Part shown: piece by piece, positions 17,324 through 21,212 of the stretch
How the letters are laid out: each line of letters starts with the position of its first letter
Position numbering within the stretch: the first letter of the stretch is position 1
Assembly (NCBI RefSeq): GCF_002797395.1
Contig: NZ_KZ454943.1
Span: 3,509,966-3,573,965 of the forward strand
Direction: 5' to 3'
Length of the DNA: 64,000 nucleotides
Source: Bacillus solitudinis
Lineage (GTDB): Bacteria > Bacillota > Bacilli > Bacillales > Bacillaceae_D
Notes under the pieces: model-generated
What the model saw: the letters and a program-made list of their open reading frames with translations, nothing else
What the model was told of the DNA's origin: nothing
Database searches by the model: none
Translations under genes and position numbers: made by a program

Positions 17324-18613
17324 ATGACAGTAAATAGTGTAAAAAAAGTAAAAAGTTTAAATGGTACGATTCGAGTACCAGGCGATAAATCCATTTCTCA
17401 TCGTGCGGTAATGTTTGGAGCGATTGCTGAAGGTACAACGACAGTAGAAGGTTTCTTACCTGGAGAAGACTGCCTTAGTACAATAGCTTGTTTTCAAAAA
17501 TTAGGCGTTAACATCGAGCAAGACGGGGAACGTGTTACCATTGAAGGTAAAGGGTGGGAAGGACTTGAGGAACCTAGCGACATTCTAGATGTGGGGAATT
17601 CTGGTACGACAACAAGATTGATGCTGGGAATTTTAGCGACAAGACCGTTTCATTCGGTTGTTATCGGAGACGATTCAATCGCAAAACGTCCAATGGCACG
17701 AGTGACCAATCCCCTGCGTAAAATGGGTGCTGAAATTGATGGACGAAATGAAGGGAATTTTACCCCACTTTCTATTCGTGGTGGTCAAACGAAGGGAATA
17801 ACCTATCAGTCCAAGGTTGCTAGTGCGCAAGTGAAGTCATGTTTGCTTTTAGCTGGGCTTCAAAGCGAAGGCACAACCTCGGTAACGGAACCTGCTTTAT
17901 CAAGAGATCATACAGAGAGAATGCTTGAGGCATATGGTGTTACGGTTACACGTGAGGGTCTAACCGTATCAGTCGAAGGTGGGCAAGCATTAAAGGCACA
18001 GCATATCGTTGTCCCAGGTGACGTATCATCTGCCGCATTTTTCCTAGTTGCGGGAGCAATTGTTCCAAATAGCGAAATTACATTACAAGGAGTTGGATTA
18101 AACCCAACCCGTTCCGGCATAATTGATGTACTAAAGTTAATGGGGGCATCTCTTAAATTAACAAATGAAACAATGGTTGGTGGGGAACCGATTGCCGATG
18201 TGACGATAAAGACATCTGAGCTTCACGGAATTGAAATAAGTGGTGATTTGATTCCTAGATTAATTGATGAAATTCCAGTCATAGCCGTATTAGCTTCTCA
18301 AGCAAACGGAACGACAATCATTAAAGATGCAGAAGAGCTTAAAGTTAAAGAGACAAACCGCATTGATACCGTTGTAAGTGAATTAACAAAATTAGGTGTC
18401 TCCATTCAGGCAACGGAGGATGGTATGATTATTAATGGCGGTGCTTTGTTAAAAGGAGCAACAGTTAATAGTTACGGAGACCATCGGATCGGGATGGCTA
18501 TGGCAATAGCTGGCCTCATTGCAGAAGGGGATGTGACAATTGAGCGAAGTGATGCTATTGCAGTCTCCTACCCGAGCTTTTTTGAACATATCTCTTTACT
18601 AGAAGAAAAATAA
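17324..18613 (+). CDS. aroA: 5-Enolpyruvylshikimate-3-phosphate synthase
   Basis: A 429-aa enzyme adding enolpyruvate to shikimate-3-phosphate (called AroE in B. subtilis). Motifs are [35 protein letters not shown] and [14 protein letters not shown]. The glycine in GNSGTTTR is the common form of the glyphosate-sensitive loop region. The ATG at 17324 follows TAGGAGGAG. It is the last gene of the aromatic supraoperon. Confidence 0.96.
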
Positions 18614-18619
18614 ATATTG

Positions 18620-18670
18620 AAAAGGTTGTCTCAAAAGGTGGAAATAACCCTTTAAAGGCAACCTTTTTTG
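18620..18670 (+). terminator. Terminator after aroA
   Basis: AAAAGGTTG pairs with CAACCTTTT around a branched interior (AAAGG/CCTTT), followed by further T. It faces the reverse-strand RNA candidate at 18692. Confidence 0.75.
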
Positions 18671-18691: not shown

Positions 18692-18793
18692 AAAAAAAAG
18701 ACCTCAAATCAAAAACGAAAGCGTTTTCAATCTGAGGTTTAGCTAAATAGCTACATGTAGTATGGATAGGAGTGGAGAGAAACCATACGCTAC
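18692..18793 (-). ncRNA. Candidate small RNA with anti-SD loop
   Basis: Reading the reverse strand: a promoter TTGACT-N16-TATAAT (18825 to 18798) is followed from about 18793 by a hairpin whose arms are GTAG..TATGG and CCATA..CTAC on the forward strand. Its 17-nt loop (18782-18766) reads as pyrimidine-rich RNA with CUCUCC and ACUCCU. A second hairpin (18738-18701) ends in eight U (18699-18692). Promoter, structured body and terminator give a free-standing RNA of about 100 nt without an open reading frame. The loop could pair with Shine-Dalgarno sites. I do not recognise the family; relations to FsrA, RoxS or CsfG were not testable. Confidence 0.7.
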
Positions 18794-18797
18794 TTTT

Positions 18798-18825
18798 ATT
18801 ATAGCCAAACTATTAAAAAAGTCAA
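18798..18825 (-). promoter_or_regulatory. Promoter of the small RNA
   Basis: On the reverse strand TTGACT (18825-18820), 16-bp spacer, TATAAT (18803-18798). No protein gene lies downstream in this direction before the terminator. Confidence 0.7.
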
Positions 18826-18922: not shown

Positions 18923-19864
18923 ATGTACTTACTAGACCGAGTGAAAAAAATTGAAAAAGGTAAGCTTATTCCACGCTCCTATTTAATATCTAATCAGAAA
19001 ATAAATTATGTAAATGAATCTCTTAATAAGTGGAAAGAGCAAAGATTAAATGCAGAAGGATTTATGTTAGATAGTGGGAATATTATGATAGATAATGAAT
19101 TACTCTCAATGGATTTTAGTGCTTTTCAACAACAACAACGACAGCTTCTTAAAAAGGGTTGTACAACAGTGGCAGTGTTTAATCAAGTAAACTATGAAAA
19201 GCAGCTTCTCACACAACTTAAAAATGCAAAACATCGCATGACAAATAGCTCCCTTGATTTTGTCATTGGATTATCAATGTCTCTACATCTCCTTCGTCCA
19301 ACGGTCATTCGTAGTTGTCAGAAGTACAAAATTCCTGTCTTGAAAATTCAAGTTAGTACTGGAGACAATCTACAGGATGTACCTTGGACTCATATAGCAC
19401 AAGCATTACTCTCTTATCAAGTCGTTCTTCTTCTTGATATAATAGGTGGGAACAAAAGAGAGCGTCAAGCGATCGCACATAGCTGGTACTGGTTTTGTCA
19501 AAAGTATCGAATTCCAACGGGAGAAGTTCCGGATCCTCATAGAAATTGGCCAAAATCCCTTCTTCAGAAAACAGGACTTTACCCGATAAAAGGAGAATTG
19601 TTAATAGGAAGTGATGTTGATTATCTTTTGTATTTAGATTATGCAAAAACAAATCTTGATTCTCAAGCACTTTCGGTTGAAGAAGACTCTCTTCTTGATT
19701 ATGATAAAGAGGAGCCAAATATTGTTGTGCTCCGCGGAAGAAATTTAAAAATAAATGATGAATACTTTCTCAAACCAGGTTTTGGATATCATATTCAGGT
19801 AAAAAAGCCAGGACGTTTTGTACCAATAACCGAAGCCCATGATTATAATTCATCAGGCTTATAA
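18923..19864 (+). CDS. Degenerate amidohydrolase-like protein, function unknown
   Basis: A 313-aa protein with no counterpart in the B. subtilis locus that I know. Its plan recalls NagA-type amidohydrolases: an N-terminal LIPRSYLISNQKI strand, the segment AEGFMLDSGNIMID where the metal-binding HxH would be expected, LLKKGCTTVAVF, and a C-terminal GLYPIKGELLIGSDVDYLL like the family's GSDADL closing strand. The HxH ligands are replaced, so it is probably not a metal hydrolase; a structural or ligand-binding role is possible. ATG 18923 follows GAAGGAGGAT. It sits between the aromatic cluster and ypiA. Confidence 0.75.
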   Translation: MYLLDRVKKIEKGKLIPRSYLISNQKINYVNESLNKWKEQRLNAEGFMLDSGNIMIDNELLSMDFSAFQQQQRQLLKKGCTTVAVFNQVNYEKQLLTQLKNAKHRMTNSSLDFVIGLSMSLHLLRPTVIRSCQKYKIPVLKIQVSTGDNLQDVPWTHIAQALLSYQVVLLLDIIGGNKRERQAIAHSWYWFCQKYRIPTGEVPDPHRNWPKSLLQKTGLYPIKGELLIGSDVDYLLYLDYAKTNLDSQALSVEEDSLLDYDKEEPNIVVLRGRNLKINDEYFLKPGFGYHIQVKKPGRFVPITEAHDYNSSGL

Positions 19865-19949: not shown

Positions 19950-21212
19950 ATGAATCAAATCGAAAAAGCTATAGAGGCTATAGAAGCTGGCAATGTTGAT
20001 AAAGGGCTTGCAGCCTTAGAACAAGCAGAGAAAAGTGCAAGTCATGAAACGAAATATACACTCGCAGAAACGTATTATGAGCTTGGCCATATTGAAAAGG
20101 CAAAAAAAATCATTGAAGAGTTAATGATGCTTTATCCTGACGAAGGTAGCTTATACGCGTTTTTAGCAGAGTTAATGATTGATTTAGATCAAGAGGATGA
20201 AGCGATTGATCTTTTGCTTGAGATTAGTGAAGCTGATCCTGCTTTTCTACAGGCTCAATTACTTTTAGCTGATTTATATCAAATGCAATCATTAGACGAA
20301 GTTGCAGAGCAGAAGCTGTTACAGGCTGCCCAAAAGGCTCCAGATGAAGTGATTATTTCCTACGGTCTTGGGGAATTTTACTTAGAAAGAGGAGATTATC
20401 TTAAAAGTATTCCTCATCTAAAAAAAGCGTTGCATGGCAAAGGTGAACTTCCAAATATTCCTGTTGAATTAAAGCTTGCAGAAGCTTACAGTACAAGCGG
20501 GCAATTTGAGGAGGCGTTACGTTATTATAAAGAAGGATTGAATGAACATTTAAACCCACATGCGATTTTTGGATATGGATTTACGGCATATCAAGTCAGA
20601 GACATGGTTCTAGCAATTGAACAATTTGAGGCATTAAAGGCCCTCGACCCAGATTTTACAAGTGTGTATCCGTATTTGGCAAATGCATATGAAGCAGAAA
20701 ATCGAATAGAGGAAGCAATGGAGACATTAAATGAAGGAATGGCTGTTGATGAATACAATGAGCAACTCTATATTCAAGCTGGGAAGTTAAGTTTTAAGCA
20801 ACAGCAACCTCAAGAAGGCGAACAATTTTTACGGAAAGTTATTGCTTTAAATCCATCAAATATGGAAGCAGTTCAAACCCTTGCCGCGTATTTGAAGCAT
20901 GATGACCAATTTGTTGAGTTACTTGAGCTCATCACTCATACGAAATCTTACGGCGAAGAAGATCCATTATTAACTTGGTTTGAGGCAGTGGCACTTAAGG
21001 AAACCGACTCCTATGAAGAAGCATATATCCGCTTTCAAGAAGTAGAAGATGCTTTTTCAAGTGATTTTGACTTTTTAGAGGAATATGGTTATTTTCTATT
21101 AGAATTTGGACAACGTAAAAAAGCTTTAGAGTGTTTTCAGAAACTAGCACACCTCAACCCAGAACGTGGGGATATTCAAGAATTAATAGTTGATTTATCT
21201 TCTGGGATATAA
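19950..21212 (+). CDS. ypiA: TPR-repeat protein YpiA
   Basis: A 420-aa protein made almost entirely of tetratricopeptide repeats (for example LAETYYELGHIEKAKKIIEE and YGLGEFYLERGDYLKSIPHL), predicted soluble and acidic. It follows the aro/trp cluster and precedes ypiB, as YpiA does in B. subtilis. TPR proteins bind partner proteins; no specific partner is visible. RBS TAGGAGG is upstream of the ATG at 19950. Confidence 0.9.
   Translation: MNQIEKAIEAIEAGNVDKGLAALEQAEKSASHETKYTLAETYYELGHIEKAKKIIEELMMLYPDEGSLYAFLAELMIDLDQEDEAIDLLLEISEADPAFLQAQLLLADLYQMQSLDEVAEQKLLQAAQKAPDEVIISYGLGEFYLERGDYLKSIPHLKKALHGKGELPNIPVELKLAEAYSTSGQFEEALRYYKEGLNEHLNPHAIFGYGFTAYQVRDMVLAIEQFEALKALDPDFTSVYPYLANAYEAENRIEEAMETLNEGMAVDEYNEQLYIQAGKLSFKQQQPQEGEQFLRKVIALNPSNMEAVQTLAAYLKHDDQFVELLELITHTKSYGEEDPLLTWFEAVALKETDSYEEAYIRFQEVEDAFSSDFDFLEEYGYFLLEFGQRKKALECFQKLAHLNPERGDIQELIVDLSSGI

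Follow-up and report, generated by a model that had tools for sequence, protein, structure and literature searches.

A predicted sRNA gene at the end of the aromatic operon

The window analyzed here is a 64,000-nucleotide stretch of the Bacillus solitudinis genome. Within it, aroA, which encodes EPSP synthase and is the last gene of its operon, lies on the plus strand (17324 to 18613) and is followed by a probable operon terminator (AAAAGGTTG...CAACCTTTTTT; 18620 to 18669, read from the sequence). Convergent with aroA, on the minus strand, is a predicted small RNA (sRNA) gene of ~100 nt (18692 to 18791), identified by promoter and terminator scans, fold stability, and class-wide conservation. 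A preliminary description had placed this gene between aroA and ypiA, but its far-side neighbor is in fact a 313-amino-acid open reading frame (ORF; 18923 to 19864), and the ypiA-like gene for a TPR protein comes next (19950 to 21212). The 313-amino-acid ORF has no Pfam match, and its best NCBIfam match, to dihydropyrimidinase, is far below the cut-off (E = 0.011); the ORF may encode a degenerate amidohydrolase, and it is kept beside the sRNA gene in relatives at ~27 to 65% identity.

The minus-strand sigma-A promoter TTGACT-N16-TATAAT (18825 to 18798), already read in the preliminary description, matches 11 of 12 consensus positions and ranks best among 17 promoter-like sites in a 2.5-kb scan. 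Its -35 hexamer occupies 18820 to 18825 and its -10 hexamer 18798 to 18803, which puts the expected start site at ~18791, 7 nt 3' of the -10. Most relatives keep TTGAC of the former, and the latter is likewise kept. In the predicted fold, the RNA begins with a hairpin (18760 to 18788) whose 6-bp stem, GUAUGG/CCAUAC, presents a 17-nt CU-rich loop, UUUCUCUCCACUCCUAU (18782 to 18766), which is identical in nearly all homologues and which we predict to be the mRNA-pairing seed. The 17-nt pyrimidine-rich loop had been recognized earlier; the 9-bp arms proposed to flank it would need a 2-nt bulge and would have to draw on the expected start site or on bases that precede it, and the stem is 6 bp long. 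A small second hairpin follows (UAGCU/AGCUA; 18740 to 18753), differing in length and sequence among species, and then a terminator, found by both scan and fold, with a 17-bp stem (18738 to 18701) that runs into CUUUUUUUU, the tract of eight U (18692 to 18699) noted at the outset.

The predicted folding energy of the 100-nt RNA is -29.6 kcal/mol (z = -5.9), a stability equaled by 0 of 200 shuffled sequences, and across predicted folds of 238 homologues the loop has a mean unpaired probability of 0.85. As to coding capacity, the view that the unit lacks a reading frame holds in that no ORF is present, and needs amending in that a single 11-codon ATG-to-TAG frame can be read inside it. The locus thus has its own promoter, its own terminator, no ORF, and a conserved unpaired seed, as expected of a trans-acting base-pairing sRNA. 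The unit is not a chance arrangement of motifs, for the whole promoter-loop-terminator set is found again at the corresponding place in relatives; we infer that it is transcribed.

A nearly invariant loop across the Bacilli

Almost every one of the 40 same-family genomes examined by DNA search carries the unit in the same position, as do genomes of many other families, several of which belong to the order and came from this search. Of 399 sampled genomes of the class, 107 are hit by a covariance model of the sRNA and 194, representing 83 of 146 genera, contain the 15-nt loop core by exact search. The core is nearly always present in a single copy per genome; a few of the additional sites are ribosome sites of targets or chance matches, and the reversed pattern, used as a control, is seldom found. 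When named genomes were scanned for exact matches, at least 117 stretches emerged, with carriers that include Paenibacillus, Cohnella, Brevibacillus, Aneurinibacillus, Thermoactinomyces, Melghirimyces, and Shouchella, as well as Halalkalibacter, Pseudalkalibacillus, Fictibacillus, Alteribacillus, Marinococcus, Geomicrobium, and Caldalkalibacillus.

A lack of conserved loop and stems in close relatives had been named as grounds to reject the candidate, and the candidate stands: the loop is near-invariant class-wide, and both promoter and terminator persist despite drift in their sequences. In aligned homologues, a 26-nt block, AUGGUUUCUCUCCACUCCUAUCCAUA, is almost unchanged and the promoter hexamers are kept; the flanks, stem, linker, second hairpin, and terminator drift, with folding retained around a constant loop. 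Some other families have different flanks that still pair; in the most distant family inspected (f53), UCUG...CAGA replaces UAUGG...CCAUA as the flanks of an almost identical loop, and these flanks can still close a hairpin in many members. In genomes of family f73 (loci L549 and L581 to L585), the sRNA gene is present as a pair of paralogues that share the loop and differ in their 5' parts; several of these paralogues bear CcpA-like sites.

The sRNA gene also keeps largely to one genomic place. At 188 of 215 loci it lies no more than 700 nt from the end of hisC, tyrA, or aroA, whichever of the trp-his-tyr-aro supraoperon genes comes last there. Its strand is that of the operon at 141 of the loci numbered L001 to L229 and the opposite at 58; most lineages have the same-strand arrangement, and the lineage of the window is among those with the opposite one. 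Since the place is kept and both strands are used, we suggest that one ancestral gene was inverted in place more than once.

CcpA operators in promoters and terminators

A perfect CcpA operator, TGNAANCGNWNNCA, is present in 91 of 192 distinct sRNA promoters, where dinucleotide shuffles lead one to expect 0.2; these operators sit between the -35 and -10 hexamers or near them. If terminator stems are counted too, 121 of the 192 have a perfect site in one or the other location, and terminators with a perfect or one-mismatch site number 88 of 192 (~7 expected). The window's own sRNA gene has no perfect CcpA site: it has a cre-like sequence inside the terminator, TGAAAACGCTTTCG (18716 to 18729), with one mismatch to TGNAANCGNWNNCA. 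Because this one-mismatch terminator site is all that the operator scan finds there, CcpA control in B. solitudinis itself is a weaker inference than in the family at large.

Predicted pairing with ribosome-binding sites

We searched 40 genomes for the exact 11-nt loop complement, GGAGTGGAGAG, and read most of the sites, naming target genes from their N-terminal sequences and by protein similarity searches. Besides its occurrences at the sRNA itself, GGAGTGGAGAG was found as a ribosome-binding site (RBS), starting 11 to 18 nt 5' of the start codon, in front of the genes for DAHP synthase/chorismate mutase (6 genomes), serC (6), hom (3), pheA (2), serA (1), and gltA (1), and also of folD and cobU. 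The five main candidates (DAHP synthase, serC, hom, pheA, and serA) were then fetched from other genomes according to the presence of the sRNA and not of a match; three of the fetched genomes overlap with the discovery step, one for pheA (G007) and two for hom (G018 and G054).

The clearest case is DAHP synthase, whose RBS forms a predicted duplex with the loop of -19.9 kcal/mol on average in 53 sRNA-positive genomes. The corresponding value is -12.9 kcal/mol for 419 other genes (p ~1e-20, from related genomes and with no correction for phylogeny) and -15.3 kcal/mol for DAHP synthase in 14 core-less genomes (p = 4e-4; p = 4e-5 for the longest exact run); these p-values overstate independence because the genomes are related. 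Runs of at least nine exact pairs occur at 30% of the DAHP synthase sites, against 1.7% for other genes and 0% in core-less genomes. There are fewer data for serC (-18.3 in sRNA-positive genomes against -11.8 in the comparison set) and for hom (-19.2 against -15.4, marginal by duplex energy at p = 0.06). DAHP synthase and serC show an excess over core-less genomes, as does hom by two of three measures; pheA has strong complementarity in a small sample, and for serA core-bearing and core-less genomes show no contrast. In sRNA-bearing genomes, complementarity to the loop is unusually high for DAHP synthase, serC, and hom and less so for pheA and serA. The suggestion in the preliminary description that the loop acts as an anti-Shine-Dalgarno sequence gains from this concentration on the RBS of the first three genes, and its regulatory-RNA interpretation is supported in kind. 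Class-wide distribution, synteny at the operon end, CcpA operators, and target genes had not been seen at that stage.

Carriers and non-carriers of the RNA contrasted strongly in a first comparison and not in a second genome set, until several of the "negatives" proved to be core carriers. In the final test, presence and absence were settled by exact core search, strict filters having missed the RNA in several genomes, and G178, an ambiguous genome in which pairing is strong, was omitted. Where the loop itself is altered (the G355 clade and G026), no compensatory change was found in the targets. A class-wide pattern, AGGAGTGGAGA before ATG, was also tried as a target finder and set aside, the Shine-Dalgarno background being too high for it to be informative alone.

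In the genome of the window, the predicted RBS duplexes are -22.8 kcal/mol for DAHP synthase, -21.0 for serC, -18.7 for hom, and -16.8 for serA. The motif GGAGTG[GT]AG precedes ATG at 13 sites there, hom, serC, and serA among them, and a search for it in three genomes returned these same three genes in the two same-family genomes; the trio is found again in a related genus. Several Bacillales targets pair with one mismatch (GGAGUGUAGAG), and targets differ among lineages. Perfect loop complements of 16 to 17 nt cover the RBS of an acyl-CoA dehydrogenase gene in family f58 and of a HAD-type hydrolase gene in family f68. In f58 (L294, L295, L298, L592, and L593), exact complements of 11 to 17 nt lie on the RBS of hydroxybutyryl-CoA dehydrogenase-like and acyl-CoA dehydrogenase-like genes, which suggests lineage-specific targets in fatty-acid degradation.

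Relation to described sRNAs

As a rule, conserved trans-acting sRNAs of Gram-positive bacteria do not extend beyond one genus or family. A scan of the window with 4,227 Rfam families, among them those for RoxS/RsaE, FsrA, CsfG, and 6S as far as represented, was the check that had been advised, and it gave none above the gathering score at the sRNA locus, and a scan of 16 homologous loci gave no family either. The sole Rfam match in the window is a pan motif (RF01749; 33691 to 33778; 58.8 bits). SdsR/RyeB (RF00111) reached 24.3 bits, below its gathering score of 38, and the best whole-genome match of the RsaOG/RsaI model (RF01775) lies elsewhere in the genome, at 19.9 bits against a gathering score of 50. 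A literature search for the core strings returned no relevant paper, its sole match being an unrelated human lncRNA study. The sRNA is apparently undescribed, as the preliminary description had supposed, and by these comparisons it is a new family whose distribution is unusually wide and whose seed is almost frozen.

The sRNA nearest to it by function is GcvB, which is a user of Hfq. The two nearest by control are RsaI and RosA. In Escherichia coli and relatives, GcvB represses aroG (DAHP synthase), serC-aroA, and pheA, and pairs with aroG at the translation initiation region (PMC11878033). The targets predicted here overlap those of GcvB, a trans-acting repressor of amino-acid metabolism, but GcvB pairs through its seeds R1 and R3, whereas the family described here combines a CU-rich hairpin loop with CcpA operators, and the Rfam scans of the window and the 16 homologous loci gave no homology to GcvB in sequence or structure. 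RsaI (RsaOG) of Staphylococcus aureus is a stand-alone, CcpA-repressed RNA that pairs with the Shine-Dalgarno sequences of glcU_2 and fn3K and represses their translation (PMC9266662); it is reported to be conserved in Staphylococcus and not in Bacilli (PMC8216469), its targets are different, and its model is unmatched at the sRNA locus. RosA of Bacillus subtilis, of ~229 nt, is likewise stand-alone and CcpA-repressed and is a sponge whose G-rich regions bind RoxS and FsrA (PMC8216469); it has no CU-rich seed, whereas our sRNA has no G-rich sponge regions and a CU-rich unpaired region. RoxS/RsaE and FsrA resemble the sRNA in that their C-rich regions pair with mRNA targets in Bacillota (PMC8216469), but they have other seeds and gave no Rfam match at the sRNA locus. 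The control of the sRNA promoter and its genomic place set it apart from RoxS/RsaE and FsrA.

A proposed mechanism and its alternatives

In total, the gene anatomy, its conservation and synteny, the family-wide CcpA operators, and the gene-specific RBS complementarity are computed observations, and they are consistent with a mechanism that we consider probable: a CcpA-controlled trans-acting sRNA that blocks the translation of amino-acid biosynthesis genes and is thereby a Gram-positive functional counterpart of GcvB. In this model, a stand-alone RNA would be transcribed by sigma-A, and its CU-rich hairpin loop would base-pair with extended Shine-Dalgarno sequences of the type GGAGUGGAGAG on the mRNAs of DAHP synthase/chorismate mutase, serC, and hom, probably on those of pheA and serA, and on those of lineage-specific genes. 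Pairing would cover the RBS and so block translation; we posit repression as its outcome. In many lineages, CcpA would act through operators in the promoter spacer or the terminator. Given CcpA control, we propose that the RNA is made once the preferred carbon source is exhausted, and that amino-acid synthesis is then shut down. As the loop matches the RBS of amino-acid biosynthesis genes, the sRNA probably switches off amino-acid production when a preferred sugar runs out.

Could the complementarity reflect a general selection for strong, purine-rich ribosome sites, with the RNA acting elsewhere? Sites of the type GGAGTGGAG do occur in core-less genomes too, but Shine-Dalgarno strength is equal in the targets of both genome groups, and the loop pairs better with the targets than do shuffled loops of equal composition and better than it pairs with other genes, so that we regard this explanation as unlikely. 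We also find improbable a sponge or decoy whose CU-rich loop would sequester an RNA-binding protein or G-rich sRNAs and leave mRNAs alone: there is precedent in RosA and RsaI, which are stand-alone CcpA-repressed RNAs that bind other sRNAs (PMC8216469), but both act via G-rich stretches that are absent here, and a sponge or decoy does not predict complementarity to the RBS of particular genes.

About as improbable, in our judgment, is a reading that takes the invariant core to be chiefly the DNA operator of some regulator, with the short transcript incidental. Its appeal is that 15 to 17 bp just 3' of the promoter are near-perfectly invariant, that Caldalkalibacillus and related genomes (L066/L104, L077, and L076) carry a GGAGTGGAGAG-like copy of the loop complement between -35 and -10, and that one further locus (L211) has CTCTCCACTC between the -35 and -10 of the sRNA promoter. 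These copies in the sRNA's own promoter (L066, L077, L076, and L211) possibly represent a DNA operator or autoregulation. Yet most promoters have no second copy, the core is inside a predicted transcription unit with a strong terminator and is unpaired in the folds, and its complements are found at the RBS of specific genes, oriented as RNA pairing would require. Finally, an ATG ~5 nt from the predicted 5' end could open a leaderless micro-peptide gene (MVSLHSYPYYM-like), but its third codon positions vary no more than the other two, no stop is fixed across species, some homologues lack the ATG (TCTGATTTCTC...), and there is no ribosome-binding site; we rejected this reading, which has hardly any likelihood left, on the invariance of third positions and the lack of conservation of the ATG.

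Implications

The preferred reading, that of a translational repressor under CcpA, can be carried further, to a broader proposal to which we give even chances. We speculate that the sRNA is an ancient, class-wide master regulator of the Bacilli that couples carbon status, via CcpA, to amino-acid biosynthesis. Its place after the aromatic operon and its nearly frozen seed of 15 to 17 nt would date back to the ancestor shared by Paenibacillus, Brevibacillus, Thermoactinomyces, and the alkaliphilic Bacillus lineages. It would be convergent with GcvB, and loss would account for the lack of the core in most lineages of the window's order and in several other families. If the sRNA is absent from the model lineages, this absence would explain why it was missed. 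The model would be testable in industrial genera such as Paenibacillus, Brevibacillus, and Shouchella and would bear on the production of aromatic amino acids. If it is true, the sRNA would be a missing global layer that links carbon catabolite control to amino-acid synthesis.
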